DNA from: a bacterium
Lineage (GTDB): Bacteria; Planctomycetota; UBA1135; GCA-002686595
Direction: 5' to 3'
Assembly: GCA_030428395.1 (NCBI GenBank)
Contig: JAUIDW010000015.1
Span: 1-40,360 of the forward strand
Length of the DNA stretch: 40,360 nucleotides
Shown: positions 5,001 to 40,122 of the stretch, piece after piece
How positions within the stretch are numbered: position 1 is the first letter of the stretch
How the letters are laid out: the number at the start of each line of letters is the position of its first letter
Made by a program: the position numbers and the translations under genes
The notes under the pieces: generated by a model
What the model saw: only the letters and a program-made list of their open reading frames with translations
What the model was told of the DNA's origin: nothing
Database searches by the model: none

Positions 5001-5307
5001 CGGGCCCGGCGACGGACCGGCGCGCAGCAGGCTCCTCCGGTGGGCCGGACCCCTGCCCGCCGAGGACAAGCTCGGCCCGGGCCTCCGATCGCGGCCCGCC
5101 GGAGAGCCGGCCCGCGTGGTGGTCACGTTCCACGCGGACGTCCCGCCGGTGGCGGGGGAGCGGCTGCTCGACGGGCGCGACACCGAGCTGCTGGACCGGG
5201 ACCGCTGGGCGCTCGAGCTCGATGCCGGCGCGGCCCGCGAGCTCGCCCGGCACGACGCCGTTCGCCGGGTCGCGCTGGATCCGAGGCCCGCGAGGCTGGG
5301 GCGGTAG
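2083..5307 (+). CDS. Secreted S8 family (subtilisin-like) serine protease, large
   Basis: A 1,074-residue exported protease. The N-terminus (MGKAIACLLLAGWIPATAAA) is a signal peptide with AxA-type cleavage. Residues ~30-245 look like an inhibitor-type propeptide. The catalytic domain spans ~246-570 with all key residues visible: Asp254 in ICDRGIS, His291 in THGTEVAS, oxyanion Asn413 in WAAGNDGS and Ser492 in SGTSYAAP. Residues ~590-730 (from LDELRVAIAWDDP to SLVTSEP) resemble the beta-sandwich/P-like domain that follows many bacterial subtilases. The last ~130 residues (HALVQFHREP ... YVARVGPGDG; VVVTFHADVP) repeat the style of the N-terminal propeptide, which is unusual. No LPXTG, TM segment or sorting signal is seen at the C-terminus. 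It is followed 14 bases later by the kinase-SUMF1 gene, so co-transcription is likely. Substrate unknown. Confidence 0.9.
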   Translation: MGKAIACLLLAGWIPATAAAQGGASPAPARQVQFRSGPVVLQEGTAERVRARLGDGWQGSFPAVVVFERRPDRAEAAALERGGVRLGGYLGGTAYEVYADAPDALSFASGAPRVLAADLFEPGWKVGRRLLEADSLQDIPTSAQDEGGRVLLYVTFHPGTPEPLVRQVLDGFAPSSRYARDVWRASAGFDELLTLASEERVRAISIRHVGTGEDLDVRARGIVRTELVQDVASYGPAPSYGGRTGKGVRIAICDRGISQTHQDFFYVDSAGQPTSESRIYGSHLVEGTKTHGTEVASVAGGSGVASSAWEDRPAFSLRGHAPLAELGSYAKVHASETSTPIDEAYHEMLVTDGSDIVNHSYALDVSEPTAPADEESTPSRVLDEIIAGDYEASDGDGGTVLLPARPSVWAAGNDGSLSVSGAAAAYGTVLIQSKNAIVVGSTTVDETGELFETSSLGPTWDRRIRPDVVAPGGLVAFATGAKDEYRIWSGTSYAAPVVTAALALAMEEFSDETGLSTWNLPPSLFRALVVGTARDLVRPREPELGWVPPGIALSPEPRYPVGPDLATGFGLLDAEALCAALADENRWEVEELEQAGDADEYCLDVPAGLDELRVAIAWDDPVPAAAGAVPLTNDFDLTVIHDDGLGNVETYHPWCLDLSGWTLTGGDHPPEATRGVDRWNNVELVSVRRPDATGTWTVRVESFAQDPGAQTYSLVTSEPIEWFCTQLVDLPLIPWPDLEWWPWPFDPWSFDRSGDVVSLPARAVHPLDHLQHLLAGPPALVADPGDVVLRLARLPAGARVLVFDEEGTIAEDGARSDGGTVREIVLSIDAPERRRYLALFPPEGEEFALNEQGRIDLDVALYRPEEVDDLTVLEAVLPPGVEPSPAPAGGAPADASYHRVRLGGRVFTPRPSRDVPADLRRAREANPPRGPRAPVHALVQFHREPTARERIALAAERVHLVERLGGATYVARVGPGDGPARSRLLRWAGPLPAEDKLGPGLRSRPAGEPARVVVTFHADVPPVAGERLLDGRDTELLDRDRWALELDAGAARELARHDAVRRVALDPRPARLGR

Positions 5308-14981: not shown

Positions 14982-16457
14982 TCAGGGCTCCGGCTCGTCC
15001 TCCGGCGGGATCCCGGGCAGCGCCTGCAGCTCCGGCGGCGGGCGCCAGCCCCCGCCGAGGGCCTCGAACAGCGAGATCAGCCGGGTGAACGTGCTCGCGC
15101 GCGCCAGGGCGACCTGGTCCTCGACCTGGAAGTTGGTGCGCTCGGCGTCGAGCACGGCCTGGTAGTCGACCAGGCCCTCCTCGTACTCGATGCGCAGGAT
15201 CTCGACCGACCGCGCGGACTGCGCGCGGGCGCGCTCGAGCACGCCGTAGCGCTCCTGCTCGTTGGCGAAGGCGTTCAGCGCCTCCTCGACCTCCTCGGCC
15301 GCCGCCAGCACGGTCTGCTCGTACTCGTACACCAGCCGCTCGGTCCGTGCGTCCTCGACGTCGATCGCGCGCAGCACGCGGCCGAAGGCGAAGAGGTTCC
15401 AGCGGAGGAAGGGCCCGACCGAGAAGCTCTTGCTGTCGCTGTCGAACAGGTCGCCGGACGAGGCGGTCTCGAAGGCGAACTCGCCGTCGATGCTGAACGA
15501 GGGGTAGAGCTCGCCCTCGGCCAGCCCGATGCGCGCGGTCTGCGCCGCCAGGCGGCGCTCGGCGCCGCGCACGTCGGGGCGGCGGCGCAGCAGCTCGTGG
15601 GGGATGCCGATCGCGATCCGCTCGGGCAGCGACGGCACGGAGGCCTCGCCGTCGAGCAGCTCGTCGAGGCTCCCGGGAAAGCCCCCCAGCAGCACGGCCA
15701 GGCGGTTGCGCGCGACGGCGACGTCGGTGTCGAGCGCCTCGAGCGTGGCCTCGGTCTGGTGCAGCAGCGTACGGGCGCGCGTCGCGTCGGCCTCGGACGT
15801 CAGCCCGGCCTCGAAGCGCGCGGTCGCGAGCTGCAGCGACGCGGACTGCGTGGCGATGTTCGACTGCGCGATGCGGATGCGCGCCTGGGCCAGGCGCAGG
15901 TCCACGTACGCGCGCGCGACCTCGGACTGCAGCAGCACGACGGCGTTGCGCCAGTCCTCGACGCTGGCCTCGAACTCGGCGGTGGCGGCCTCGAGTCCGC
16001 GGCGCAGCTTGCCCCAGAGGTCCAGCTCCCAGGTGGCCTCCAGCCCCAGGGAGTACAGCGTGCGGGTGTCGAACTGGAAGCCCGACACGTTGTTGTTGAC
16101 GCCGTTCTCGCTGTTCTTGAAGCGCCGCACCGAGCCCGTCGCGTCGAGGTCCGGGAAGAGCTCCGCGAGGCGCAGGCCGCGCTGAGCGCGGACCTCCTCG
16201 ATGCGCGCGAGCGCGGCGTACAGGCCGGGATTGCGTTCCATCGCGGCGTCGACGAGGGAGTCCAGCAGAGGATCGTCCAGCGCCTTCCACCACTGCGCGG
16301 CGACCTGCTCGTCGGTGGTCCACTGCGGCGGCAGGTCCGCCTCCCAGGAGGCGGGCACGTCGAGCTCGGGGCGCTCGTAGTCGGGGCCGACCTTGCAGCT
16401 CGCCAGGGCCACGAGGGGGATCAGCGCCCGGAGGGGGGGACGGACGGGGACGCGCAC
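14982..16457 (-). CDS. Outer membrane efflux/secretion factor, NodT/TolC family lipoprotein
   Basis: A 491-residue outer membrane factor, the channel component of tripartite efflux or type I-like secretion. I chose GTG 16457 as start (VRVPVRPPLRALIPLVALAS then Cys), which gives a short signal peptide with lipobox LASC; other GTG or upstream starts are possible. The mature protein begins KVGPDYERPELDVPASW, the NodT signature, and continues with WWKALDDPLLDSLVDAAMERN, LEATWELDLWGKLRRG, RAYVDLRLAQARI, LLRRRPDVRGAERRLAAQTA, PFLRWNLFAFGRV and YQAVLDAERTNF, the two repeated OEP domains. It is divergent from the LEPR-XLL gene across a 189-base intergenic region and may serve the adaptor proteins encoded downstream of that gene. 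No inner membrane pump gene lies next to it. Confidence 0.9.
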   Translation of the reverse strand: MRVPVRPPLRALIPLVALASCKVGPDYERPELDVPASWEADLPPQWTTDEQVAAQWWKALDDPLLDSLVDAAMERNPGLYAALARIEEVRAQRGLRLAELFPDLDATGSVRRFKNSENGVNNNVSGFQFDTRTLYSLGLEATWELDLWGKLRRGLEAATAEFEASVEDWRNAVVLLQSEVARAYVDLRLAQARIRIAQSNIATQSASLQLATARFEAGLTSEADATRARTLLHQTEATLEALDTDVAVARNRLAVLLGGFPGSLDELLDGEASVPSLPERIAIGIPHELLRRRPDVRGAERRLAAQTARIGLAEGELYPSFSIDGEFAFETASSGDLFDSDSKSFSVGPFLRWNLFAFGRVLRAIDVEDARTERLVYEYEQTVLAAAEEVEEALNAFANEQERYGVLERARAQSARSVEILRIEYEEGLVDYQAVLDAERTNFQVEDQVALARASTFTRLISLFEALGGGWRPPPELQALPGIPPEDEPEP

Positions 16458-16646
16458 GGGGATCGCTGGAGCCCCTATCGGGCGCCGGGGTCGCGCGCCG
16501 AAGGCAATGCCCGGAAAGCCCGGCCGGTGGCCGGTTCCGCGCGTTTTGGCTTCGCCCGCGGGCCCCCCCGTGCCGACCCGAACGTCGGTCCCCTGTCCCC
16601 CGGCCACGCTCCGTCGCCCCGGACGCAACCCCCCGTGACTTCCGCG
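16458..16646. other. Divergent intergenic region between channel gene and LEPR-XLL gene
   Basis: A 189-base region that must hold promoters for both directions. I find no convincing sigma-70 or sigma-54 box on either strand. It includes a short less GC-rich patch (GCGCGTTTTGGCTTCG) near 16540 and GC-rich inverted segments (GCCGGTGGCCGG). GTG 16635 is a possible alternative start, in frame, 12 bases before ATG 16647. Confidence 0.4.
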
Positions 16647-19600
16647 ATGCCGCAACCCGAACCCGAACACCGCGCGGCCCGCGAGGCCGAGGACGCCCCG
16701 CCCGAGGAGGAGGCGGCCGAGGAGGAGACGGCCGAGGAGCCGCGCGCGCCGCGGGCCTCGGGGAAGTTCGGGGTCGAGTCGCTCGAGCCCCGCATCCTGA
16801 TGTCGGCCACGTGGGTCGAGGCCGAGCTGGGCGAGGAGGCGCTGGAGGAGGCGCTCGGCGACGACGCGGGTCAGGCCGAGGCGGAGGTCCTCGACGGGCT
16901 CGACTCGGAGAGCAGCCTGTTCGACGAGGGCGAGCTCGCGTCGCTCGAGGAGCTCGGCGCGGACTCCGACGACGGGGACGACGCCGCGGAGGAATCGGAG
17001 CCCGCCTCGACCGACGTCGCGCAGACCGCGGTGCCCAGCGTCACGCCGACGGGCGAGGGCTTCACCGCCGGCTCGCTGGGCGAGGACGAGGGCTCGCGGA
17101 CGGTCGTCTTCCTGGATCGCAGCGTGCCCGAGCTCGACGAGATGATCGCCGACCTGGACGCGCAGATCGCCGGCGGCCGCGACCTCGAGTACGTGGTGAT
17201 CGAGGCCGACCAGGACGGCATCGCGGTCGTGTCCGAGACGCTCGCGGGGATGGAGGGCGTCGACGCGGTGCACGTCGTGTCCCACGGGGACGAGGGCTCC
17301 GTGACGCTGGGCTCGGCCGAGCTCGACGGCGCGTCCCTGTCCGCCCGGGCCGACGAGGTCGCCGCCTGGGGGCACGCGCTGGACGCCGACGGCGACCTGC
17401 TGCTGTACGGCTGCGACCTGGCCGGCGACGCCGGGGGCGAGGCGTTCCTCGAGCAGCTCGCCGAGCTGACCCGCGCCGACGTCGCCGCCAGCGACGACCG
17501 CACCGGCGGCGAGGAGTCGGGCGGCGACTGGGAACTCGAGCACGAGGTCGGGGACGTCGACGAGGGCGTCGTCTTCAGCGCCGGCATGCGCGCGGAGTAC
17601 GCCGGCGCCCTGGGCGAAGTGCTGCAGGTGCCCGGGAGCGTCGCCGGCACCGAGGACCAGCCGGTCGAGCTGCCGATCGCGCTGGACCTGGAGCCCGGTC
17701 AGGAGGCGACGTCGATCGTCGTCGCGGGCGTCCCCGAAGGCGCCTCGCTGAACCAGGGCACCGACAACGGCGACGGCACGTGGACCCTGACGCCGGCGGA
17801 CCTGGACGGCCTCGAGCTGCTGCCCGCGCCGGACTCCGACGCGGACTTCGCGCTGACCGTCACGGTCGAGACGTCGACCGGGTCCACGGCGACGACGATC
17901 GACCGGACGAACGCGACCAGCACCGGCAACGGCTTCACCGTGTCGGGACGCACGATCCAGCCCGACGGGACGCTGTCCGACGCCGACCCGTCCCACGTGA
18001 CCCTGTCGAGCTCCGGCATCGGCGTCGCGGGCGACACCGGCGGACCGGGGTACCAGCTCGGCCACGACGTGTCCCGCGGCCTCTCCGAGGAGCTGCACGT
18101 CGAGTTCGACACGAGCGTGGAGCACGCCGAGGTCGAGATCGAGCGCGCCTTCGCGGGCGAGGGCGGCAGCGGGAGCGGCGAGCAGGGTCACTACCAGCTC
18201 TTCGAGGACGGCGTCCTCGTGGGCGAGGGCACCTTCGCGCCGACGAGCGGCCACCGGATGACCCTGAGCCTGTCCGTCCCCGGGGGCGGCACGTTCGACC
18301 AGGTCGTCTTCACCGCGACGGACTACTCGGGCGGCGCCAACGGCAGCAACGACTCCTCCGACTACCTCGTGAAGTCGGTCTCCTTCGAGCGCCCGGGCGA
18401 CAGCTCCAGCGAGTCGGCCACGATCCAGGTCTCCGTGGCGAGCGTCGCCGACGCGGCCGACCTGACCGCGAACGACGTGGCCGGCAGCGAGGACACGAGC
18501 ATCGCCCTGGACCTCGCCGCGAGCGTCACGGACGACTCCGAGACGATCACGGCCGTCACCGTCACGGGCGTCCCGGAGGGCGCCACCCTGAGCGCCGGCG
18601 TCGACCACGGCGACGGGACGTGGTCGGTCGACCCCACGGACCTCGACGGCCTCGCCCTAACGCCGCCGCAGGACTTCTCCGGCGACATGACGCTGGGGCT
18701 CGAGGTCACCACCGAGGACGGCGGCGACAGCACCACGACGTCCGAGTCGTTCACCGTCAGCGTCGCGGGCGTCGCCGACGTCCCGCAACTCGAGGCCTCG
18801 GCGGGCGACCCGGTCGCGGTCAGCGAGCCCGGCGTCGCCCCCATCGCCCACTGGACGATGGACGACGCCTACGGCTCGGTCACCGTCGTCGACGCGAGCG
18901 GCTCGAACGACGGCGAGTCGCGCAGCACGATCTCGGGCAACCGGGTCGACTTCGACCCCGGAGAGGGCCACGACGGCGGCGGCGCGGTCGAGTTCGACCC
19001 GGCGGACCGCACCTACGTCGAGGTGCCGCACGATCCGGTGCTCAAGCCGGAGTCGGGCGCGCTCACCCTCTGGATCAAGCCGGACGACGTCGACGGGCTG
19101 TACGGTCTCGCTTCGACCGACTCGATGCACTACGACGACGGTGGGCACTTCACCGCCTGGGTCGCCGACGGCGAGCTCCGGGTGCGCCTCCAGGGCACCG
19201 ACATCGACACCACGATCCAGGGCGGCAGCGTCCAGGAGGGCGCCTGGCAGCACGTCGCGATCACCTGGGGCGACGACGGTCTGCAGGTCTTCCTCGACGG
19301 CGGCCTGGTCGCGTCGGACCCGAGCTGGACCGGCGGTCTCGGCGGCAACGAGGAGCCATGGGTCCTGGGCGCGAACCAGTGGGCCAGCGGCGACGGCGTG
19401 GCCGACGAACTGCGCGACTTCTACGACGGCCAGATGGACGACGTCGCGCTCTACGGGGAGCAGCTCGACGCCGCCCAGATCGCGGAGCTCGTCGCCGCCG
19501 GGGTCGAGGGGCTCGCGGCCGGGGAGCAGCACACCGAGTACGCCCTGGACGTCGCGACCGCCGCCGCGGATGGCGACGGCTCCGAGGACGTGGTGATCAC

Positions 19601-22454
19601 GGTCGCCGGCCTTCCCGAGGGCGCCGCGCTGTCGGCCGGCACCGACAACGGCGACGGCTCCTGGACCCTGGAGCCCGCGGAGCTGGACGGGCTGACGCTG
19701 AGCGTGCCCTCCGGCGGGCCGGATTCGTTCGAGCTCGTCGTGACGTCGACCGCCACCGAGGCCGACGGCGACACCCAGACCGCCTCGACGACGCTGACCA
19801 TCGGCGCGGCCCCGATCGAGCAGGTCGACGCGAGCGGCGTCGAGGACACCGCGATCCCGCTGACCGTCACGCTGCCGGACGTCAAGCCGGACGACGAGAT
19901 CGTGATCGGCGGCGTCCCCGACGGAGCCGTCCTGAGCGCGGGTGTCGACAACGGCGACGGAACCTGGACGCTGACGCCTGCCGAGGCCGACGGCCTGACC
20001 GTCACGCCGCCCGCGGACTCGGACCTGGATTTCGACCTCACCGTCACGCTGCGCTCGACCGACGTGCAGACGACGACGGGGACGATCGACACCTCCAACG
20101 CAGGCGCGACGGGCCAGGGCTTCACGGTCGAGGCCCGCACGATCCAGAGCGACGGGACCCTCTCCGACCCGTCGGCCGACCACGTGCTCGTGACGAGCAG
20201 CGGCCTGGGCGTCTCCGGCAGCACCGGGGGACCCTCCAGCCAGCTCGGCTACGACACGAACCGGGACGTCTCCGAGGAGCTGCACGTGCGCTTCGACGCG
20301 GACGTCGGCTCCGCGACGGTCGAGGTCGGAATGCTGTACTCGAACGAGGGCGGGAGCGCCGAGCAGGGCCGGTGGCAGGCCTTCCAGGACGGTGTCCTGG
20401 TCGGCGAAGGGCTCTTCGCGCCCACCAGCGGCACGTCGATGACCGTCGACGTGGACCTCCCTGCGGGCACGACCTTCGACCAGCTCGTCTTCTCGGCCAC
20501 CGAGTTCACCGGCGGCACCGACGGCAGCGGCAACAGCAGTGACTACTTCGTCCGCTCCATCACCTACGAATCCGTCGAGACGACGACGGCCGACCGGGAC
20601 CTGGGCAAGATCCACGTCGAGGTCGTGCCCGACGCCGACGCGGCGGCGGTCGTCGCGAACGACGTCAGCGGCTCCGAGGACAGCCCGATCGCGCTGGACC
20701 TGACCGCGAGCGTCACGGACGACTCCGAGACGATCACCGGTGTCGTCGTGACCGGCGTGCCGGCCGGCGGCGAGCTGAGCCACGGCACGGACAACGGCGA
20801 CGGCACGTGGACGGTCGACCCGGCCGACCTGGGTTCGCTCGAGTTCACGGCGCCGGAGAACTTCAGCGGCACCGTCAACCTCGGAGTCGACGTCACGACG
20901 ACCGACGGGACGGACACCGAGACCACGAACTCCAGCTTCACGGTGACGGTCGGCGCGGTCGCGGACGAAGCCGCAATCGTCGCGAACGACGTCAGTGGCG
21001 CCGAGGACAGCCCGATCGGGCTCGACCTGACCGCGAACGTCACGGACGACTCCGAGACGATCACCGGCGTCGTCGTGACCGGCGTGCCGAGCGGCGGTGG
21101 GTTGAGCCACGGCACGGACAACGGCGACGGCACGTGGACGGTCGACCTGGCCGACCTGGGGGCGCTCAAGTTCACGCCGCCGGAGAATTTCAGCGGCACG
21201 GTGAGCCTCGGAGTCGACGTGACGACGACCGACGGCGCTGACACGGAGACCACGAGCTCCGGCTTCACCGTGACCGTGACGCCCGTGGCCGACGAGGCCG
21301 TGGTGGTCGCGAACGACGTGCGGGGGGACGAGGACACGCCGATCCGGCTCGACGTGGCGACGGGGGTGGGCGACGACTCCGAGTCGGTGCGCTCCGTCGT
21401 CGTGACCGGCGTGCCGGCGGGGGCGCTGCTGAGCCACGGGGTCGACCACGGGGACGGCACCTGGAGCGTGGATCCGGACGACGTCGGCGCTCTCGAGCTG
21501 ACGCCGCCGGAGGACTTCAGCGGCACCATCGAGCTGGGGCTCGAGGTGACCACGGAGGACGGCGCGGACGCGGAGACGGTGTCCACGAGCTTCTCGGTCA
21601 CCGTCGATCCCGTGGCGGACGGCGTGAACCTGGGCGTGGACGCGAGCAGCGGGACGGTGGGGGATCCGATCCCGCTGGGGGTGACGATCGAGGGGCTGGA
21701 CGTCGACGGGTCGGAGCACCACCACCTGCTCGTGGACGGTCTGCCGCCCGGGGTCTCGCTGACCGGGGGCGAGCGCATGGGGGACGGTACGTGGAGGGTG
21801 CCCGCCGGCGAGCTCGAGGGGCTCGCGATCGTGACCGACGTGGCGTTCGAGGGGGCGGACCTGTCGCTCGAGTTCTCGGTCGTCTCGACCGACGGCTCCG
21901 ACACGGTGGTGACGACGTTCGCGGAGGGCCCCGTGCTCCTGACGATCGCGCCGGACGAGCCGCCGGTGGACACGACGGCGGACGACGGGGAGGCGGGCGA
22001 CAACGAGCCGGGGTCCGACGACGGGTCGGACTGGCCGTCGGAGCAGGGCGACGCGGACCTCTACGAGGGCGTGTCGTTCGAGGAGGACCTGTTCGCCGGC
22101 AGCTCGGGTGCGCAGGCGGGCGAGGAGGCCGGCGACGACCCGGGAGGCGCGCGCGAGGCGATCGCGCTCGGCGCCACGCCGCGGATGGAGCTGCCCGACC
22201 CCGGGGACGGGCTCGTCCGGCTGTTCGCGCTCGACCCGGAGAGCGCGGCGCCGCTGGACGCGGAGGGACCGGACGAGCCGGGGCGCGCCACGCCCGCGGC
22301 CGGACCGGTCGTCGAGCCTCCCGCGGACGAGGGCGGCTCCCCCGCTGCCGCCGCGGCCCGCACCGCGGGCATCTGGACCCTCGTCGTGGGCCTGCTCCGG
22401 AACCTCACCGGCGCCTCCCCGGCGAGCAAGCACGACGACGACCGCAGACCGTAG
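16647..22454 (+). CDS. Giant LEPR-XLL / DUF4347 surface protein with LamG and cadherin-like repeats
   Basis: A 1,935-residue acidic protein. An Ala/Glu-rich N-terminus without a normal signal peptide is followed by FGVESLEPRILMSATW (LEPR-XLL motif at 46-54), the planctomycete-type N-terminal tag of very large surface proteins. DUF4347 spans ~150-285 with VHVVSHGDEG (His213) and LLLYGCDLAG (Cys256). Then come eight degenerate repeats with the core VPxGAxLSxGxDNGDGTW, two copies of a ~150-residue domain (GRTIQPDGTLSDAD and ARTIQSDGTLSDPS types), and one LamG/concanavalin-like domain at ~730-955 (IAHWTMDD, ALTLWIKPDD, HVAITWGDDGLQVFLDGG). The C-terminus is Pro/Glu-rich and ends with a short hydrophobic patch (GIWTLVVGLLRNL) and SKHDDDRRP. 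Likely a secreted adhesin-like protein. Its DUF4347 resembles HG...GC caspase-clan peptidases, discussed as a finding. First gene of a five-gene cluster. Confidence 0.93.
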   Translation: MPQPEPEHRAAREAEDAPPEEEAAEEETAEEPRAPRASGKFGVESLEPRILMSATWVEAELGEEALEEALGDDAGQAEAEVLDGLDSESSLFDEGELASLEELGADSDDGDDAAEESEPASTDVAQTAVPSVTPTGEGFTAGSLGEDEGSRTVVFLDRSVPELDEMIADLDAQIAGGRDLEYVVIEADQDGIAVVSETLAGMEGVDAVHVVSHGDEGSVTLGSAELDGASLSARADEVAAWGHALDADGDLLLYGCDLAGDAGGEAFLEQLAELTRADVAASDDRTGGEESGGDWELEHEVGDVDEGVVFSAGMRAEYAGALGEVLQVPGSVAGTEDQPVELPIALDLEPGQEATSIVVAGVPEGASLNQGTDNGDGTWTLTPADLDGLELLPAPDSDADFALTVTVETSTGSTATTIDRTNATSTGNGFTVSGRTIQPDGTLSDADPSHVTLSSSGIGVAGDTGGPGYQLGHDVSRGLSEELHVEFDTSVEHAEVEIERAFAGEGGSGSGEQGHYQLFEDGVLVGEGTFAPTSGHRMTLSLSVPGGGTFDQVVFTATDYSGGANGSNDSSDYLVKSVSFERPGDSSSESATIQVSVASVADAADLTANDVAGSEDTSIALDLAASVTDDSETITAVTVTGVPEGATLSAGVDHGDGTWSVDPTDLDGLALTPPQDFSGDMTLGLEVTTEDGGDSTTTSESFTVSVAGVADVPQLEASAGDPVAVSEPGVAPIAHWTMDDAYGSVTVVDASGSNDGESRSTISGNRVDFDPGEGHDGGGAVEFDPADRTYVEVPHDPVLKPESGALTLWIKPDDVDGLYGLASTDSMHYDDGGHFTAWVADGELRVRLQGTDIDTTIQGGSVQEGAWQHVAITWGDDGLQVFLDGGLVASDPSWTGGLGGNEEPWVLGANQWASGDGVADELRDFYDGQMDDVALYGEQLDAAQIAELVAAGVEGLAAGEQHTEYALDVATAAADGDGSEDVVITVAGLPEGAALSAGTDNGDGSWTLEPAELDGLTLSVPSGGPDSFELVVTSTATEADGDTQTASTTLTIGAAPIEQVDASGVEDTAIPLTVTLPDVKPDDEIVIGGVPDGAVLSAGVDNGDGTWTLTPAEADGLTVTPPADSDLDFDLTVTLRSTDVQTTTGTIDTSNAGATGQGFTVEARTIQSDGTLSDPSADHVLVTSSGLGVSGSTGGPSSQLGYDTNRDVSEELHVRFDADVGSATVEVGMLYSNEGGSAEQGRWQAFQDGVLVGEGLFAPTSGTSMTVDVDLPAGTTFDQLVFSATEFTGGTDGSGNSSDYFVRSITYESVETTTADRDLGKIHVEVVPDADAAAVVANDVSGSEDSPIALDLTASVTDDSETITGVVVTGVPAGGELSHGTDNGDGTWTVDPADLGSLEFTAPENFSGTVNLGVDVTTTDGTDTETTNSSFTVTVGAVADEAAIVANDVSGAEDSPIGLDLTANVTDDSETITGVVVTGVPSGGGLSHGTDNGDGTWTVDLADLGALKFTPPENFSGTVSLGVDVTTTDGADTETTSSGFTVTVTPVADEAVVVANDVRGDEDTPIRLDVATGVGDDSESVRSVVVTGVPAGALLSHGVDHGDGTWSVDPDDVGALELTPPEDFSGTIELGLEVTTEDGADAETVSTSFSVTVDPVADGVNLGVDASSGTVGDPIPLGVTIEGLDVDGSEHHHLLVDGLPPGVSLTGGERMGDGTWRVPAGELEGLAIVTDVAFEGADLSLEFSVVSTDGSDTVVTTFAEGPVLLTIAPDEPPVDTTADDGEAGDNEPGSDDGSDWPSEQGDADLYEGVSFEEDLFAGSSGAQAGEEAGDDPGGAREAIALGATPRMELPDPGDGLVRLFALDPESAAPLDAEGPDEPGRATPAAGPVVEPPADEGGSPAAAAARTAGIWTLVVGLLRNLTGASPASKHDDDRRP
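20640..21620 (+). repeat. Three tandem 327-bp units inside the LEPR-XLL gene
   Basis: The marker GTCGCGAACGACGT recurs with its GAAC ending at 20660, 20987 and 21314, an exact 327-base (109-residue) period. Units 1 and 2 are almost identical over long DNA stretches, which points to recent duplication; unit 3 is more diverged. Each unit encodes one cadherin-like repeat ending in SFTVTV-type strands. Confidence 0.85.
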
Positions 22455-22517
22455 ACCACCGCCGGAGCGGGCCGCCGCGCGGCGACCCGACCGGATCGAC
22501 CCCCAGGAAACCGAGAG

Positions 22518-22928
22518 ATGCTCGACCACCCCGACCACGACGACCTGTTCGGCGAGAGCTCCCAGGCGCTGCTGCGCGAGCTGGAGAAGAACACGTCGTC
22601 GAACATCCAGAAGATGCGCGCGCACGAGCGGATCGCGGTCCGCGCCAAGGTCGTGCTGCGCCCCGGCAGCCTCAGCCAGCGCGACGCGTGGAGCCTCGAG
22701 GGCGTCACGGGGGACATCTCGCGCGGTGGCGCCAAGGTGCTCATGCCGCGCCCGGTGTTCGTCGGCGACGTGTTCCAGGTCGCCTTCGACCCGGAGGTCC
22801 TGGCCGTGCCGCCGCAGCTCTGCCTGAGCCAGTGGTGCCGCACCGTGCGCGGCGACGCGTTCGAGTGCGGGCTGTCCTTCTTCTCCCCGATCGACCTCGC
22901 CGCCGCCCTGCGCGAACCGGGCACCTGA
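22518..22928 (+). CDS. PilZ domain protein (c-di-GMP receptor candidate)
   Basis: A 136-residue cytoplasmic protein, ribosome site CAGGAAACCGAGAG before ATG 22518. After a helical N-terminus (~1-35) it shows RIAVRAKVVL (the RxxxR arm) and DISRGGAKVLM (the D/NxSxxG arm), the two c-di-GMP-binding motifs of PilZ domains, followed by GDVFQVAF and a beta-rich end. It sits between the giant surface protein and the adaptor genes, 63 bases after the former, so c-di-GMP may control assembly or export of that protein. Binding is predicted from motifs only. Confidence 0.85.
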   Translation: MLDHPDHDDLFGESSQALLRELEKNTSSNIQKMRAHERIAVRAKVVLRPGSLSQRDAWSLEGVTGDISRGGAKVLMPRPVFVGDVFQVAFDPEVLAVPPQLCLSQWCRTVRGDAFECGLSFFSPIDLAAALREPGT

Positions 22929-22980
22929 ACCCCGGCCCGCCCCCGGTCCGCGCTGCCCCCCCACCCCCGCGAATCCCCGG

Positions 22981-24852
22981 ATGCAATCCCCCGAGCTTGC
23001 TCGAGCCGCCGACCCCGGCGAGCTCTTCGACGTGGTCGAGGAGATCGGCCGCCTCGAGCACGAGGCGCCGTCGGTGGACGAGTTCTACCGGCGTGGACTC
23101 GAGCGGATCGCCCGCCACTGCGGCGCCGGGCTCGGCGCCCTGCGGGTCGAGTTCCCCGGCCGGCACCTCGACGCGCGCCACGCGCCCGACGCGCTGCACG
23201 CCGAGGCCTGGATGCAGCAGCTGCAGACCTCGCTGCTGCACGCCCAGGTCGAGGGTCAGGCCCTGGGCGAGGTCGTGCGCGTGCCTTCGACCGGGCAGGA
23301 GGTCGCGCTGCTCGCCGTGCCGATCCACGCGCCGGGCTCCTCGGGCCGGGGCGCGCTCGGGCTCGTGCTCGCGGGCGGGCCGCGGGCGATGGTCGAGGCG
23401 AACCTCGCCGAGCTGCGCGCCCTGGCCGGCCTCCTGGACCTGGCGTGTCCGCAGCCGCGCGGGACGGCGACCGCGACCTCGGTCGACGCCGCCACCGAGG
23501 GCGTCGGCGCGGCGAGCAAGGCGGCACGCTTCAAGGACGCGCGCGAGCTGGCCTTCGCCCTGACGAACGGCCTGCGCGCGAAGCTGGACTGCGAGCAGAT
23601 CGCGCTCGGCAGCGTGCGCGGCGCGTCCGTGCAGGTCCTGTCGATCTCGGGGCTCGACGAGCCGAAGCTGCGCGACCTGGGCACGCTCGACCTGCGCCAG
23701 GCGATGGAGGAGTGCCTGGACGCGGACGCGACGATCGTCAGCCAGGACGCCGGCACGTGGTCCGACGACGAGCCCTCGTCGCGCTTCGCGCTCCATCAGC
23801 AGTGGCGCGCCGCGGCGGGGCGCGCGTGCGTCGCCTCGATCCCGCTGCGCGCGGGCGACGGCTGCGTCGGGATCCTCAGCCTGCGCCGGCCGCACGGCCA
23901 GCCGTTCACGCGGGACGAGATCGAGGCGGTGGAGAAGCTCGTCGGCTCGATGGGGCCCGCGCTCGAGCTGCTGCACCGCGCCGGCCGCGGCCTGGGGCGG
24001 CACGCCGAGGACGCGCTGCGCGCCCTCGTGCGCGAGGCGCTGGCGCCCGCGCGGTACGGCCGCAAGGTGCTTGCCGCGGCGGGCCTCTCGTTCGCGGCGT
24101 GGTTCTTCCTCGGCACGACGGCGCACGAGGCGGTCGTGCCCTGCCGCCTCCGGCCGCGGGAGACGATCCAGTTCAGCGCGCCCTTCGAGGAGCGCATCGC
24201 CGAGAGCACGGTCCGCCCCGGCGACGCCGTGAAGGCCGGCGACCTGCTCGTGCGGCTGTCCACGGACTCGCTCGAGCTCGAGCGCCGCCAGCTCGAGGCG
24301 GAGCTCGAGGTCCACCAGGTCGAGGTCGACCAGGGCGTCGCCGCGGGCGAGTGGGTGCAGGCCAGCCTGAGCAAGGCGCGCATGGGGCTGCTCGAGACCC
24401 GGCTCGAGGCCGTGGTGCGGCGCATCGAGGAGTCCAGCATCCGCGCGGCCGTGGACGGGATCGTGCTGCGCGGCGACCTGACCCACCAGATCGGCCAGCG
24501 CGTCCCGCAGGGCGAGCCGCTGTTCGAGGTGGCGCCGCGGCTCGACATGCACCTTGAGCTGGAGCTGCCCGAGGACGCCGTCGCCGAGGTCGCGCCGGGC
24601 CAGACCGTGCGGTTCGCCTCGAACGCGCGGCCGGACGCGGCGCTCGCGTTCGACCTCCAGCAGCTCGCGCCCGCCGCCGAGGTGCGCGAGGGCCGCAACG
24701 TGTTCGTCGCCGAGGCGCGCGGCACCGCCGAGCTGCCCGCCTGGGCCCGCCCCGGCATGGAGGGCGTGGGCAAGGTGTCCCTCGGTCGTCGCCCCGTCTG
24801 GCGCGCGGCCTTCGAGAAGGTCGTCGACTCCCTCTACCGGATGTGGCTGTGA
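22981..24852 (+). CDS. GAF domain - HlyD-type membrane fusion protein
   Basis: A 623-residue inner membrane protein. The long cytoplasmic N-terminus (1-355) has a first GAF-like region (~10-150; GLERIARHCGAGLGALRVEF) and a clearer GAF domain (~180-335; LAFALTNGLRAKLDCEQIAL, VASIPLRAGDGCVGILSLRR, FTRDEIEAVEKLVGSM). A single TM helix lies at ~362-377 (VLAAAGLSFAAWFFLG). The periplasmic part is an HlyD/AcrA-type adaptor: a lipoyl half motif (FEERIAESTVRPGDAVKAGD), a coiled coil (LELERRQLEAELEVHQVE), the second lipoyl half (IRAAVDGIVLRGD) and a beta-barrel region. Joining a ligand sensor to an adaptor in one chain implies signal-gated secretion, which is inference. It ends overlapping the next start (GTGA). 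No ribosome site is evident. Confidence 0.87.
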   Translation: MQSPELARAADPGELFDVVEEIGRLEHEAPSVDEFYRRGLERIARHCGAGLGALRVEFPGRHLDARHAPDALHAEAWMQQLQTSLLHAQVEGQALGEVVRVPSTGQEVALLAVPIHAPGSSGRGALGLVLAGGPRAMVEANLAELRALAGLLDLACPQPRGTATATSVDAATEGVGAASKAARFKDARELAFALTNGLRAKLDCEQIALGSVRGASVQVLSISGLDEPKLRDLGTLDLRQAMEECLDADATIVSQDAGTWSDDEPSSRFALHQQWRAAAGRACVASIPLRAGDGCVGILSLRRPHGQPFTRDEIEAVEKLVGSMGPALELLHRAGRGLGRHAEDALRALVREALAPARYGRKVLAAAGLSFAAWFFLGTTAHEAVVPCRLRPRETIQFSAPFEERIAESTVRPGDAVKAGDLLVRLSTDSLELERRQLEAELEVHQVEVDQGVAAGEWVQASLSKARMGLLETRLEAVVRRIEESSIRAAVDGIVLRGDLTHQIGQRVPQGEPLFEVAPRLDMHLELELPEDAVAEVAPGQTVRFASNARPDAALAFDLQQLAPAAEVREGRNVFVAEARGTAELPAWARPGMEGVGKVSLGRRPVWRAAFEKVVDSLYRMWL

Positions 24853-26981
24853 GCGAGGCCGCCGAACCGAGCCTGGCCGGCCGCCTGGCCGACGTGGTCG
24901 TGTCGCTGCGCTCCGAGCTGCGCGTGACCCGGACGGTGTTCCGCGGGCAGCCGAGCTACATCGTCCGCGACCCCGTCACGTTCCAGTCGCACCGCCTGGC
25001 GCCGGAGGAGTACCAGGTGTTCCTCGCGCTGGGCAGCGACCGCCCGCTGGCCGAGATCTACCGCGAGCTTTGCGCCGACGGCCGCGCCGAGCCGGGGGAC
25101 GAGGAGGACCTGTGCCACTTCGTGCTGCACCTGTACCGCCTCGGGCTCCTGAACCTGCCGATCCCCGACCACTCGAGCCTGTACCGGCGGTTCGAGCGCA
25201 AGCACGGCCTGCAGCGGCGGCAGAAGCTGCTCGGGTTCCTGTTCGTGCAGGTCCCGCTGCTGGCGCCCGACGCGTTCCTCGACCGCACGGTGCGGTTCGT
25301 GCGCCCGCTGTTCACGCGCGCGGCGTTCGTCGCGTGGTGCGTGCTGATGGCCGCGATGCTGGGAGTCGTCGCGGCGCGGTGGCGCGACCTGACGGCCCCG
25401 CTGCTGACCTTGCTGGACCTCGGAAACCTGCCGTGGCTCGCGGGGATCCTCGTCGCGCTCAAGGTGCTGCACGAGCTCGGCCACGCCTACGCCTGCAAGG
25501 TGTTCGGCGGCCGGGTGCCCGAGATGGGAGCCCTGTTTATCGTCGGGACGCCGCTGGCCTACGTCGACGCCTCGGCCGCCTGGGGCTTCCCCGGCAAGCT
25601 GCACCGCGTCGTCGTCAGCCTCGCGGGGATGTACGTCGAGGTCGCGATCGGCGCCGTGGCGCTGTTCGCGTGGGCCCTGACCGACGCGTCGTTCGTGAAC
25701 AGCCTGGCGTATCAGACGTTCATGATGGCGACGGTCGTGACCGTGCTGTTCAACGTCAACCCGCTGATGCGGTACGACGGCTACTACGTCCTCGCCGACC
25801 TGGTCGAGGTCCCCAACCTGCGCGCGCGCAGCCAGGCGCGGGTGGTGGGCTGGCTGAAGCAGATGGCCCTGGGCCTGCCCGGGCCGCAGGACGGCACGCC
25901 TGGGGGTCTGGGCGCGTTCCTGACGGTGTTCGGCGCGGCCTCGGCGGTCTACCGGTTCTTCCTGGTCGTCGGCATCTGCGCCCTGATCGCGGCCAAGGTC
26001 TACTTCCTCGGCGTGGCGCTGGCCGGGTTCTACCTGGCGACGACGGTGGGGGGCACGCTGTGGAAGGCGGGGCGCTACCTGTGGCGCTCCGAGGAGACCG
26101 CGACGGTGCGCGCGCGTGCGGCCGTCGTCGGCGTGCTGGGGGCCGTGCTGTTGCCCGCGGCCGTCGTGGCCGTGCCGGTGCCCCTGCCCGCGCGGCCGGT
26201 GGGCATCGTGACGGCCAGCGAGGAGACGGTGCTGCGCAACCTCTCGCCGGGGTTCGTGCAGAGCGTGGAGGTCCGCGTGGGCGACGTGGTCGCGCCCGGC
26301 GAGCCGCTGGTGCGCCTGGCGAACGCCGAGCTGCACGAGCGCGTCGCGGAGGCGCGCGCGGAGCTCGACCTGCTCGAGCTCGAGATCCACCAGGGCGCCG
26401 TGGTCGACCGCCGAGTGGCGCGCCAGAAGGAGACCCGCCGCGGGTACTTCGCCGACGTGCTGGGCCGCGCCGTCGAGCGCATGCAAGGCCTCGACGTCGC
26501 CAGCGCGGACGGGGGCACGCTGCTACGGCTGGATTGCCCGCGCGCGCCGGGGACCTTCCTCGGGGAGGGCAGCCCGATCGGGCTGCTCGGACGCGGGCCG
26601 TGGGTCGGGCGCTTCCTGATCGACGAGGAGTCCTTCCCCGGCCTGCGCGTCTCCGTCGGCGACCGCGTGCGCTGCCGCGCGGCCAGCGACCCGACGCGCG
26701 CCTTCGAGGGGCGCGTCGTGTCGCTCGCCCCCGTGGCGAGCCGCGAGGTCGTCCAGACGGCCCTGACCAACCTCGGGGGCGGCGCGATCGTCGTCGACCC
26801 CGAGACGCAGCGCTCGGACCGCCCGCACTTCGAGCTCGTCCTGGCCTTCGCCGAGGACGACCGCGAGCACCTGCGCCACGGCCTCACGCTGACCGCCGAG
26901 GTCGACGCCGAGGCCCGCACGATCGCCCGCCACGTCTACCTGAGGATCCTGTCCTTCCTGGACGAGCTGCGTCTGGGATGA
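24849..26981 (+). CDS. PqqD-like / M50 metalloprotease / HlyD-type fusion protein
   Basis: A 710-residue polytopic protein; I chose GTG 24849 because it overlaps the previous stop as GTGA (GTG 24843 is the alternative). Residues ~25-105 (VTFQSHRLAPEEYQVFLALG; LAEIYRELCADG; FVLHLYRLGLL) look like a PqqD/RRE-type peptide-binding winged helix. Several TM helices follow. HELGHA (208-213) and NPLMRYDGYY (304-313) are the HExxH and NPxxxxDG zinc-site motifs of M50 site-2-type intramembrane proteases. After ~residue 435 comes an adaptor module with the half motif VQSVEVRVGDVVAPGEPL, a helical hairpin and a beta domain. Such PqqD-M50-HlyD fusions are annotated in planctomycetes, but I know of no defined function. 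It could bind, cleave and pass on an exported protein, with the LEPR-XLL protein as obvious candidate. Confidence 0.88.
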   Translation: MSEAAEPSLAGRLADVVVSLRSELRVTRTVFRGQPSYIVRDPVTFQSHRLAPEEYQVFLALGSDRPLAEIYRELCADGRAEPGDEEDLCHFVLHLYRLGLLNLPIPDHSSLYRRFERKHGLQRRQKLLGFLFVQVPLLAPDAFLDRTVRFVRPLFTRAAFVAWCVLMAAMLGVVAARWRDLTAPLLTLLDLGNLPWLAGILVALKVLHELGHAYACKVFGGRVPEMGALFIVGTPLAYVDASAAWGFPGKLHRVVVSLAGMYVEVAIGAVALFAWALTDASFVNSLAYQTFMMATVVTVLFNVNPLMRYDGYYVLADLVEVPNLRARSQARVVGWLKQMALGLPGPQDGTPGGLGAFLTVFGAASAVYRFFLVVGICALIAAKVYFLGVALAGFYLATTVGGTLWKAGRYLWRSEETATVRARAAVVGVLGAVLLPAAVVAVPVPLPARPVGIVTASEETVLRNLSPGFVQSVEVRVGDVVAPGEPLVRLANAELHERVAEARAELDLLELEIHQGAVVDRRVARQKETRRGYFADVLGRAVERMQGLDVASADGGTLLRLDCPRAPGTFLGEGSPIGLLGRGPWVGRFLIDEESFPGLRVSVGDRVRCRAASDPTRAFEGRVVSLAPVASREVVQTALTNLGGGAIVVDPETQRSDRPHFELVLAFAEDDREHLRHGLTLTAEVDAEARTIARHVYLRILSFLDELRLG

Positions 26982-26995
26982 ATCGGAGAACCGAC

Positions 26996-27847
26996 ATGTT
27001 GCGCCCGCCCCTGCCGCTCGTCGCCGCCGGCCTCCTGGCCGCGCTCCCGCTGCAAACCTCCGCGACCGGGCAGTCGCCCGCGCCGACCCCGCGCGGCCAG
27101 ACCGAGGTGTTCCTGCACGGCATCGTCCAGCCCGTCCACCAGGCGCGCGTCTCGGCGCAGATCGCCGCGCGTCTGGACGGCTTCGCCGTCGAGGAGGGCG
27201 ACCGGGTCGAGCGCGGCGACGTGCTCGTGGAGCTGGACGCCAGCGTGGCGCGCGCGTCGGTCGCGGCGGCGCGGACGGCGGCGGCCTCGACCGCCAAGCT
27301 GGATTACGCGCGCGCCGAGGTCGAGCTGGCGGAGACCACGCTCGCGCGCCACCGGCGCGCGCAGGAGCGCGGCGCGTCCAACGCGAGCGCCATCGAGGAG
27401 GCCGAGGCCTACCTGCTGCAGGCGCGCGCGTCGCTGCGCTCGGCCCAGGAGGCGGTCGAGCAGGCCCGCGCCAACCTGGCGCTGGAGGAGGCCAAGCTGG
27501 ACCAGTACACGCTGCGCGCGCCCTTCGCGGGCACGGTGGCGCGCCTCTTCAGCGAGCCGGGGCAGACCGTCACGCCGGCGCAGGAGCTCGTCCACGTGGT
27601 CGACCTGTCGTCGCTCGAGGTCGAGCTGTACCTGCCGTTTTCGCTGTGGGGCGAGCTCCAGGCCGGCGAGGCCTACGACCTGCGGGCCTCGGCCCCGGTC
27701 GGGGGCGCGCTGACCGGACGGCTGGTGTACGTGGACCCGGTCCTGCAGTCCGCCACGCGACACATGCGCTGCGTGTTCGAGATCGACAATGCGGGCGGCG
27801 CGCTGCCCGCCGGGTTCACGGTCGAGCTGGTGCACCCCGGGCCCTGA
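26996..27847 (+). CDS. Periplasmic adaptor subunit, HlyD/RND membrane fusion family
   Basis: A 283-residue exported adaptor. ATG 26996 has a ribosome site (CGGAGAA); ATG 26978 overlaps the previous stop as ATGA and would add six residues. The signal peptide is MLRPPLPLVAAGLLAALPLQ with an ATG-Q region after it. Lipoyl half 1 is ARLDGFAVEEGDRVERGDVL, then an alpha-hairpin (~80-165, rich in Ala/Glu/Arg), lipoyl half 2 (YTLRAPFAGTVARLFSEPGQ) and a beta-barrel (LEVELYLPFSLWGELQAGE). It is shorter than typical RND adaptors because the membrane-proximal domain is small. Last gene of the LEPR-XLL cluster, ending seven bases before the convergent ABC1 kinase gene. Confidence 0.88.
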   Translation: MLRPPLPLVAAGLLAALPLQTSATGQSPAPTPRGQTEVFLHGIVQPVHQARVSAQIAARLDGFAVEEGDRVERGDVLVELDASVARASVAAARTAAASTAKLDYARAEVELAETTLARHRRAQERGASNASAIEEAEAYLLQARASLRSAQEAVEQARANLALEEAKLDQYTLRAPFAGTVARLFSEPGQTVTPAQELVHVVDLSSLEVELYLPFSLWGELQAGEAYDLRASAPVGGALTGRLVYVDPVLQSATRHMRCVFEIDNAGGALPAGFTVELVHPGP

Positions 27848-27854
27848 GCGCGGG

Positions 27855-29297
27855 TCACTTCCAGTCGATGTCCACCGGGGACTCCTCGCGCAGGATGTCG
27901 CCGTAGGGCACGCGCGCCTCGAGGCGGGTCAGCATCGCGCGCACGCCGAAGAAGACCCGCGCGAGCCACGTGTTGACCGGCACGGCGCGCACCCAGCGGC
28001 GCTTGACGAACTCGGCGTAGATGCGCGCGCCGCGCTGGAACTGGTCGGGGGCGCCGTAGTCGAACGGGCCGCGGGTGCGCACGGGCTCCCAGACCCAGTC
28101 GACGTACTCGCGCAGCAGGTCGGCGCGCTCGGGCGTGAGCTGGTCGACGTCGAGGTCGGAGCCGCGCGCGAGCACGCGCAGCAGCGCGTCGTCGTCCCGC
28201 GCCGCCGAGGCGCGCTCGCAGTCCATGACGTACTCGAGCTCGTCGGCCGTGAACCGGTGGCAGCAGCCGAAGTCGATCAGGCCCAGCCGCCCGTCGGGCA
28301 GGAACAGGTAGTTGCCCGGGTGCGGGTCGGCGTACACCAGGTCCTCGCGGTACCAGAGCCGCATCGACGCGCGCGCGATCTGCGCGCCGTGGCGATCGCG
28401 CCGGTCCGCGTCGGGGCGGCCGGCGAGGAACGCGTCGAGGTGCTGGCCGTCGAGCAGCTCCATCGTCAGCACGCGGCGCGTCGAGTGCTCGGGCACGACC
28501 GCCGGCACGACCACGTCGTCCAGCCCGGCCAGGCAGCGGCGCGCGGTCGTCTGCAGCTCGGCCTCGGCCTCGTAGTCCGTCTCCTGCTCGAGCATGCGCT
28601 CGATGCCCTCGTACTGGCGCAGCAGGTTCTCCCAGTCCCCGCTGAGCCGCATCCCGAACGCCGCGGCCTTCAGGTTGCGCACGTCCGCGCGGATCGTCCG
28701 GGCGATGTCGGGGTACTGGACCTTGACGACCACCCGGCGGTCGGTGCCCTTCAGCCGGGCGCGGTGCACCTGGCCGAGGGAGGCGGCCGCGAAGGCCTCC
28801 GTCTCGAAGTCGTCGAACACCTCCAGCGGATCGCCGCCCAGCTCGTCGCGCAGGTGCTCGCGCACCAGGGCGAAGTGCATCGGCGGCGCCTCGTGCTGCA
28901 GGCGCCCCAGGGTCTCGGCGAAGGCGTCGGGCACGACGTCCGGCCAGTGCGCCAGCATCTGGCCGACCTTCATCACCGCGCCGCGCAGCTGGCTCATGCG
29001 CCCCAGCACCTGCAGCGCGGCGGCCACGTGCGTCTCGTCCAGGCCTCGCTGGCGCGCGTCCGCGTCCTGGAAGCCCGCGCGCAGCCACCAGGCGAGGTAG
29101 GCCGCGGCGATCTTGGCCTGCAGCGTGCCCAGCGACCACATGCGCGCGAAGCGGCCGGTCGGGACCGGGCGGGCGGCCACCTCCGCCAGCATGCGCTCGA
29201 GCTCCTCGCGCGCGGGGGCGCGCTCCTCGGCCTGCAGTCCCGCGTCGACGGGCAGGGCGTCGATCAGCTCGGCCAGGGTCGGATGGTCCGTCGTCAT
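27855..29297 (-). CDS. ABC1/UbiB-like atypical kinase (AarF domain)
   Basis: A 480-residue protein with the hallmarks of the ABC1 (ADCK/UbiB) family: KVGQ at 110-113 (the KxGQ motif), the Ala-rich nucleotide loop AAASLGQVH at 170-178, Lys192 in VVVKVQYP, DPHPGN at 324-329 and the metal-binding DFG at 342-344. Members are ATPases or kinases that support ubiquinone and other isoprenoid lipid pathways. No ubiquinone gene is nearby. Its start codon overlaps the TetR stop (ATGA, 29294-29297), so it is translated from the TetR message and is the likely target of that repressor. No TM segment is obvious. Confidence 0.9.
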   Translation of the reverse strand: MTTDHPTLAELIDALPVDAGLQAEERAPAREELERMLAEVAARPVPTGRFARMWSLGTLQAKIAAAYLAWWLRAGFQDADARQRGLDETHVAAALQVLGRMSQLRGAVMKVGQMLAHWPDVVPDAFAETLGRLQHEAPPMHFALVREHLRDELGGDPLEVFDDFETEAFAAASLGQVHRARLKGTDRRVVVKVQYPDIARTIRADVRNLKAAAFGMRLSGDWENLLRQYEGIERMLEQETDYEAEAELQTTARRCLAGLDDVVVPAVVPEHSTRRVLTMELLDGQHLDAFLAGRPDADRRDRHGAQIARASMRLWYREDLVYADPHPGNYLFLPDGRLGLIDFGCCHRFTADELEYVMDCERASAARDDDALLRVLARGSDLDVDQLTPERADLLREYVDWVWEPVRTRGPFDYGAPDQFQRGARIYAEFVKRRWVRAVPVNTWLARVFFGVRAMLTRLEARVPYGDILREESPVDIDWK

Positions 29298-29896
29298 GGC
29301 TTCGACCTCGCTCCGGTGTCCTCGCGGAGCCCTCGCACGAAGAGCCCCATCGATCGATCCAGGAGCGCCAGCGTGGCCTCCTGGTGGTCGGTGTCGTCCC
29401 GCGTCCAGAAGTCGAGGACGCCGAGGTACAGCGTCCACCACAGGTGCAGGCTCAGCGTCGCGTCGCCGTCCAGCCCGGCGGCGACGAGCCAGCGCTCGAT
29501 CCGCTCGAGCTGGCGCGCGCGGAAGCCGCCGTCGAGCTCGCCCGAGCGCACCGGGCTCGCCCCCGCGTCCAGCACCCCGCGCAGCCAGCCCCGGCAGGGC
29601 CGGAGGTGGCGCAGCTGGGTGGCGACGAAGGCGAAGAGCGCCTCCTCGAGCGTCTCGTCCTCGCGCCGTGTGCGGTCGAACTCGGCCTCGGCCGCGGCGA
29701 CGCCCTCGACGATCAGCGCCATCCCCAGCGCCTCCTTGCCGGGGAAGTAGTTGAAGAGGGTGCCCGTCCCGACCCCCGCCCGCCGGGCGATCCCGCGGGT
29801 CGTCGCGGCGGCGAACCCGACCTCGCCGAACAGCTCCCGGGCGGCGTCCAGCAGCCCCTGGCGGGTCCTCTCGCGGGTCTCTCGGGTCACTCGCAC
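29294..29896 (-). CDS. TetR/AcrR family transcriptional regulator
   Basis: A 200-residue repressor starting at GTG 29896 (GTG 29890 is possible; no ATG is available). The N-terminal helix-turn-helix is typical: RERTRQGLLDAARELFGEVG, then ATTRGIARRAGVGTGTLFNYF with PGKEAL. The rest is the helical ligand-binding and dimerisation domain, with a Trp-rich helix (LSLHLWWTLYLGVLDFW) that may line a hydrophobic pocket. The gene is coupled to the ABC1 kinase and preceded by a strong promoter flanked by palindromes, so autoregulation is expected. Confidence 0.92.
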   Translation of the reverse strand: MRVTRETRERTRQGLLDAARELFGEVGFAAATTRGIARRAGVGTGTLFNYFPGKEALGMALIVEGVAAAEAEFDRTRREDETLEEALFAFVATQLRHLRPCRGWLRGVLDAGASPVRSGELDGGFRARQLERIERWLVAAGLDGDATLSLHLWWTLYLGVLDFWTRDDTDHQEATLALLDRSMGLFVRGLREDTGARSKP

Positions 29897-29911
29897 GGCT
29901 CGTCCTCGAAA

Positions 29912-29973
29912 GTGAACGTGCTCAGTATAGCCGCGACCGCCCGCCTGGCAATGGATAAAGTGAGCATGATCAC
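29912..29973 (-). promoter_or_regulatory. Operator pair around the TetR promoter
   Basis: Two related sites face each other: GTGAACGTGCTCA (29912-29924) and TGAGCATGATCAC (29961-29973); one matches the reverse complement of the other at 11 of 13 bases. The second, extended by one base (29960-29973), is itself a near-perfect palindrome (6 of 7 pairs). They lie at the downstream edge of the -10 box and just upstream of the -35 box, where a TetR dimer would block RNA polymerase. Confidence 0.65.
29924..29951 (-). promoter_or_regulatory. Sigma-70-type promoter of tetR-ABC1 operon
   Basis: On the minus strand TTGCCA (29951-29946) and TATACT (29929-29924) are 16 bases apart, close to consensus and the best promoter of this type in the window. 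Transcription would begin near 29917, about 20 bases before GTG 29896. The region is much less GC-rich than its surroundings. Confidence 0.7.
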
Positions 29974-30038
29974 AAAAGTCCGCCCCGCCGCTGCGCCCCC
30001 TCGAAGCGGGGCCGAGCGAGGCCCCTCCGCGCAGGGGC

Positions 30039-30115
30039 GCCGGCTCCAAGTGCCGTCGGGCGAGGGGGATCCGACGGGAGTCGGCCCCCGGATCCACACG
30101 GAACCCAGTCAGTCC
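30039..30115 (+). repeat. Intergenic repeat copy C
   Basis: Aligns base for base with copy A (58 of 77 identical) and carries the exact core CCACACGGAACCCAGTCAGT at 30094-30113, reading toward the kinase-TPR gene. Further upstream, 30000-30038 contains hairpins (GCCCC with GGGGC; CCCCT with AGGGG). The stretch between the TetR promoter and the kinase start otherwise holds no gene. Confidence 0.8.
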
Positions 30116-30124
30116 GGATCCCGG

Positions 30125-30130
30125 TACGAT
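30125..30130 (+). promoter_or_regulatory. -10-like box TACGAT before the kinase-TPR gene
   Basis: TACGAT lies 25 bases before ATG 30155, and the bases after it (CCGGGCCGGA) are identical to those after the TAGAAT of the kinase at 10230. The two kinase promoters therefore share their -10 to +10 region. No clear -35; the repeat core ends 12 bases upstream. Confidence 0.4.
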
Positions 30131-30154
30131 CCGGGCCGGACGGGGGCGTCGGAC

Positions 30155-38529: not shown

Positions 38530-40122
<1,593 letters not shown>

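Follow-up and report, generated by a model that had tools for sequence, protein, structure and literature searches.

The gene cluster and its products

In the window (the whole 40,360-nucleotide stretch of DNA analyzed, from a planctomycete genome that is a draft, 92% complete), the gene for a lipoprotein-like, NodT-type outer membrane channel with a lipobox-like LASC (14982–16457, − strand; TIGR01845, 354 bits against a cut-off of 210; OEP, 172 bits) is divergent from the gene for a giant LEPR-XLL protein of 1,935 aa (16647–22454, + strand), the presumed cargo on the basis of its profile matches and its recurrence as an operon neighbor at the related loci termed type A below. Next on the + strand are genes for a PilZ domain protein of 136 aa (22518–22928; PF07238, 33.6 bits, cut-off 22.5), a GAF-HlyD protein that is kept at nearly all related loci (22981–24852), a 710-aa fusion of PqqD-like (RiPP recognition element, RRE), M50, and HlyD parts (M50-HlyD; 24849–26981; recognized by its motifs and a model with a pLDDT of 85.8), and a periplasmic adaptor of 289 aa (26978–27847; TIGR01730, 127 bits, cut-off 94.9, over profile positions 18–242 of 322 only). 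Both an HlyD adaptor and a TolC-type channel are encoded at this locus. The gene set and order are those of the original prediction, made from the letters of this DNA, and the GTGA overlap it reported between the GAF-HlyD and M50-HlyD genes (24849–24852, + strand) is real; it had missed an ATGA overlap between the M50-HlyD and adaptor genes (26978–26981, + strand), each of these three genes overlapping the next. The neighborhood recurs in scores of genomes and is thus not due to chance.

Elsewhere in the window are genes for a subtilase-domain protein of 1,074 aa (2083–5304, +; 117 bits), protein-kinase-domain proteins (10230–12947 and 29384–33112, +; the second with many TPR repeats), an ABC1/AarF-type atypical kinase convergent with the adaptor gene (27855–29441, −; 176.7 bits), and a GAF sigma-54 activator (38530–40119, +).

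Both c-di-GMP motifs, RxxxR and [DN]xSxxG, are intact in the PilZ protein of the window (RIAVR and DISRGG) and are present together in 62 of 68 homologues; the protein is a putative c-di-GMP binder, which is consistent with the c-di-GMP control proposed originally. In GAF-HlyD, a single hydrophobic segment (about residues 363–381) lies between the GAF region and the HlyD half, and five strong hydrophobic segments separate the N-terminal domain of M50-HlyD from its HlyD half. Because the two proteins are divided in this way, the GAF region and the N-terminal domain of M50-HlyD are probably cytoplasmic and the HlyD halves periplasmic.

Two clades of M50-HlyD loci

The 110 M50 proteins placed in a FastTree phylogeny, midpoint-rooted only for display, fall into two sets with 100% local support: type A, with 79 rows including the window and locus L106 of Planctomycetes bacterium Pla86, and type B, with 31. 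At type-A loci the adaptor, GAF-HlyD, and M50-HlyD genes are clustered in 79 of 79 cases, accompanied by PilZ in 53 and by giants in 49; little else recurs, the remainder comprising 8 channels and two families found in 6 loci each. With a channel beside only 8 of the 79 loci, the neighboring channel is not a conserved part of type A, and the view that it is a fixed component did not hold. One type-A module (L101) branches within Planctomycetota in the tree and is on a contig labeled Myxococcales, reflecting either transfer or a binning error.

The clades differ in what adjoins the M50 gene. In type B this is mostly a gene for a SecA-like ATPase of ~630–700 aa (SecA_DEAD, preprotein cross-linking domain), whereas no SecA-like gene adjoins the type-A M50 genes within the flanks examined. 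No secondary SecA is encoded in the window operon, and a single SecA (frame of 1053 aa) was found in the draft genome; a second SecA was likewise not found in six further type-A genomes (G144, G186, G231, G160, G227, and G298), and other type-A genomes that do have a secondary SecA (G053, G270, G032, and G385) also hold a further M50 copy. At some Pseudomonadota loci with DUF4347 giants, SecA was not seen in the stretch read. The SecA-like ATPase encoded beside the M50 gene in the sister clade means that the wider M50-HlyD family is not motor-less. No ABC or RND gene recurs beside the 79 type-A loci, and an RND permease is absent from the window operon; many RND proteins are encoded on other contigs of the same genome. 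No LssB-type exporter exceeded the cut-off in any of 10 genomes searched. A C39-peptidase-like ABC exporter gene lies ~7 kb from the type-A module in G186 (L035:14847–17096, −) and is not recurrent.

The LEPR-XLL giant and its terminal tags

The N-terminal tag of the window giant (residues 41–54; 16767–16808, + strand) lies inside GVESLEPRILMSATW and matches the LEPR-XLL family NF012209 with 18.3 bits against a cut-off of 17, marginal when taken alone, and with 23.1 bits in the genome search. The protein also carries a DUF4347 domain (residues 153–322; 17103–17612, + strand; PF14252, 170 bits) and LamG and Ig repeats. As noted originally, it has no normal hydrophobic signal peptide, the Kyte-Doolittle maximum being 0.45 (19-residue window, first 80 residues).

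Type-A giants share an extended N-terminal tag with the consensus LEPRILLSATW, often followed by VDAD. Fourteen non-redundant type-A loci have a tagged giant in their flanks, and its tag lies 17–50 residues past the first methionine of the frame; the pattern behind this list required the W, making the count partly circular, and the initial flank scans did not require it. About eight more type-A loci (L078, L102, L103, L118, L130, L133, L135, and L148) have a tag match just beyond the flank, and the positions of these matches suggest that they belong to the same long frames as the locus giants. No LEPR match was found in 5 of 25 genomes probed, and 4 of these 5 have a large ORF at the locus. 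Tags of type B and of Pseudomonadota are related variants (LEPRxLLSA, LEDRVLLS, and LEPRxLFDGA), and none of the six linked tags of type B has the S[AT][TS]W ending.

At the other end, type-A giants share the motif LWGLVRG followed by a charged tail (fuller consensus about FLAGLWGLVRGLGG plus charged tail). In three-fold cross-validation, a profile of this motif recovered 18 of 27 held-out copies at E<0.01; run against 9,187 ORF ends, the full profile picked up another 19 ORFs, every one giant-like and from a type-A locus; the majority are pieces of giants whose frames run off the contig or flank. The copy in the window giant (GIWTLVVGLLRNLTG, then a charged tail; 22368–22412, + strand), placed by alignment with 26 other type-A giants, is a weak member; its membership rests on that alignment because its held-out E is only 0.15. 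The motif was not seen in type-B tagged proteins in a by-eye check.

DUF4347, originally taken to be part of the system, is not so in type A: when a profile made from the domain in the window giant was run on the first 121 sequences, it matched just 3 ORFs. The domain comes after the tag in the window giant and in several Pseudomonadota giants. Two DUF4347 giants with the variant tag LEELLMLSA (L063:3–2006 and L065:3–1697, −) are encoded in genomes with no LEPR-XLL match, which suggests that tag diversity is under-detected. Ahead of the tag, several tagged proteins at L161, L163, L165, and L166 seem, by eye, to begin with a short amphipathic segment rich in Trp and Arg (e.g., MSLFLWIQRRLAS) that recalls the C-terminal motif of type A. 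A LEPR-tagged subtilase is encoded near a type-B-clade module (L043:13319–16150, −), so tagged cargo can be an enzyme. In Pseudomonadota, LEPR-XLL matches occur in open frames of up to 19,427 aa (G481:C115:112865 and others).

Co-occurrence and linkage of giants and M50-HlyD

Among 392 Planctomycetota genomes, M50-HlyD is present in 107, LEPR-XLL in 51, and both in 48 (Fisher 7e-28), and among 397 Pseudomonadota genomes the corresponding numbers are 86, 69, and 61 (Fisher 3e-42), both tests taking genomes as independent and ignoring phylogeny. The co-occurrence anticipated for other planctomycete genomes is therefore found in 48 of the 51 with LEPR, and the neighborhood itself recurs. When the tag is held to E≤1e-3, M50-HlyD is present in 29 of 30 Planctomycetota and 39 of 40 Pseudomonadota LEPR genomes; of the 20 Planctomycetota families in which LEPR occurs, 19 have M50-HlyD too. 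The genes are also linked in Pseudomonadota, where 41 LEPR/M50-HlyD pairs within ~50 kb occur in 34 genomes (a generous chance model predicts ~6 genomes), and where giants of 4,000–15,000 codons often end just upstream of the operon, as judged from positions and frame lengths. Taken together, these genomic patterns indicate that LEPR-XLL giants are likely the cargo of the M50-HlyD module. A LEPR gene was not detected in 59 of the 107 Planctomycetota genomes with M50-HlyD, so the protein may serve other cargo or cargo with divergent tags (e.g., LEELLMLSA).

M50-HlyD as putative protease and candidate tag reader

The window M50-HlyD protein scores below the cut-off for both of its named Pfam parts (M50, 16.3 bits; HlyD, 19.3 bits). 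Its HELGH zinc-protease motif (residues 208–212; 25470–25484, + strand) belongs to a conserved HExGH in which H208, E209, G211, and H212 are invariant in 58 aligned proteins, and the NPxxxxDGY region is also kept. As a multi-pass protein with both HExxH and NPxxxxDG, it has the features of M50 site-2 proteases, to which type it probably belongs, and it is predicted to be proteolytic. The M50 part is also similar to the daptide intramembrane metalloprotease family daptide_HExxH (NF041824; 150 bits, cut-off 300); no daptide genes were seen. At one locus (L070, G211:C366) the M50 gene is broken by in-frame stops (1 TGA, 1 TAA).

Pfam HMMs detected no PqqD-like domain (24870–25202, + strand) in the window protein itself; some of its relatives match PqqD families in NCBIfam (2e-5 to 9e-5). 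The whole model returned only HlyD adaptors in Foldseek, with MexA, MacA, and ZneB among the structures matched by the HlyD half, and the N-terminal domain was therefore modeled separately (pLDDT 86.8). The predicted fold is a winged helix of three strands followed by three helices, and the eight highest-ranking PDB structures are all RREs or enzymes that contain one (best E 2.6e-3, modest); the top matches are TbiB1 with leader, TigE, lasso B1 with leader, and PqqD, several of them solved with leader peptides. When the single N-terminal domain was compared with PDB by sequence, the matches were TALE repeats, judged to be a composition artifact and discarded. Its structural similarity to RiPP recognition elements makes the modeled domain a plausible tag reader. 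The predicted fold and the alignment uphold the original description of a leader-binding-type domain joined to an intact protease motif.

A proposed export route and its alternatives

On balance, the adjacent giant is probably exported and processed by this cluster through a dedicated route, M50-HlyD being its receptor and its core in the inner membrane. We infer secretion, tag binding, cleavage, assembly, regulation, and the motor as follows. The giant would be synthesized without a signal peptide, and the PqqD-like domain of M50-HlyD would bind its LEPR-XLL tag in the cytoplasm. M50-HlyD and GAF-HlyD would together form the base in the inner membrane; the tag may be cut off by the M50 site. 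In the periplasm, a ring of the HlyD halves and the adaptor would connect to a NodT/TolC-type channel, with regulation by PilZ (c-di-GMP) and GAF. Unlinked pumps or housekeeping SecA are possible energy sources; in type A, where no motor is linked, the likeliest would be the housekeeping SecA or else an ATPase encoded elsewhere, and SecA is the preferred candidate on the model of type B. The original interpretation is borne out in part. Its central idea, that LEPR giants have a dedicated system, is strengthened by co-occurrence and linkage in two phyla and by the conserved neighborhood; its statement that no ABC or RND pump is encoded agrees with the lack of a recurrent one at type-A loci, but the many unlinked RND proteins make the further claim that M50-HlyD acts in place of a pump a tentative one. 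More tentatively, type A might represent a new kind of secretion, in which a RiPP-style reader, a membrane protease, and an HlyD adaptor serve as receptor and core for double-tagged giants with no ABC, RND, or dedicated SecA component.

A version of the dedicated route to which we assign a limited likelihood has SecA/SecYEG driving inner-membrane crossing, leaving delivery, tag removal, and outer-membrane transit to the module. The SecA-like ATPase of the sister clade and the one SecA retained by the type-A genomes checked speak for it; type A, however, has no linked SecA, its giant has no signal peptide, and no direct link to SecYEG was found. It is unlikely that M50-HlyD and its partners only process or anchor the giant, clipping or holding it while Sec or an unlinked system carries it across: M50 proteins are proteases, the motif is invariant, and no motor recurs at type-A loci, yet the conserved core consists of three HlyD-type adaptors, typical of trans-envelope conduits, and the giant has no signal peptide. 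More doubtful still is a conventional tripartite system driven by an RND or ABC pump encoded elsewhere, with M50-HlyD as an accessory. The NodT-type channel, the adaptor score above the RND adaptor cut-off, and the abundance of RND proteins elsewhere in the genome fit such a system, but RND pumps typically move small molecules, the adaptor fits the RND profile only in part, and neither a recurrent pump at type-A loci nor, in ten genomes, an LssB-type exporter above the cut-off was found. A RiPP- or daptide-like module for peptide maturation and export, with the giant an incidental neighbor, would account for the daptide_HExxH similarity and the RRE-type domain and is highly improbable, as the recurrent neighbor is a giant rather than a small peptide gene, LEPR giants co-occur and are linked with M50-HlyD, and no peptide-modifying enzyme recurs at type-A loci.

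Relation to known systems and significance

Kamneva, Poudel, and Ward (2015; PMC4452313) described loci combining M50/HlyD, GAF-HlyD, and HlyD with a secondary SecA_DEAD, and with channels at some loci; they proposed a role in secretion with M50 as a possible pore, called the broader role of the module "completely unknown," named no cargo, and in the main text do not mention LEPR, DUF4347, or PqqD. The module itself is thus already published, and type B is that module; in Methylobacterium extorquens AM1 its operon is META1p2399-2402. The same three core proteins are encoded together in the window, which differs in having PilZ and in having no secondary SecA in the locus and none detected in the genome; it holds a form of this known orphan module with PilZ and no SecA, and a likely cargo and tag reader are proposed here.

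The cluster resembles type I secretion (HlyB-HlyD-TolC) in its HlyD-type adaptors, TolC-type channel, and large repeat-rich cargo with no signal peptide, but differs in having no linked ABC transporter and in its N-terminal tag and candidate RRE-type reader. The predicted N-terminal domain shares its fold with RiPP recognition elements (PqqD, TbiB1, lasso B1), but is fused to a membrane protease and HlyD, and would have as its ligand the N-terminus of a giant that contains the LEPR-XLL domain of NCBIfam (NF012209). In a literature search that was thin on subscription journals and preprints, no paper tying the LEPR-XLL tag to a machine was found, nor any earlier report of LEPR cargo, the RRE-like reader, the SecA-less PilZ clade, or the type-A end tags; no matching system was seen in the passages checked of a polymorphic-toxin paper.

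No described export route for LEPR-XLL giants was found, and the 2015 module had no known cargo; pairing the tag with the module makes the cargo question and the export question both testable. The pairing suggests that RiPP-type leader recognition has been recruited for giant surface proteins, and the pair of N- and C-terminal tags could predict cargo across phyla.
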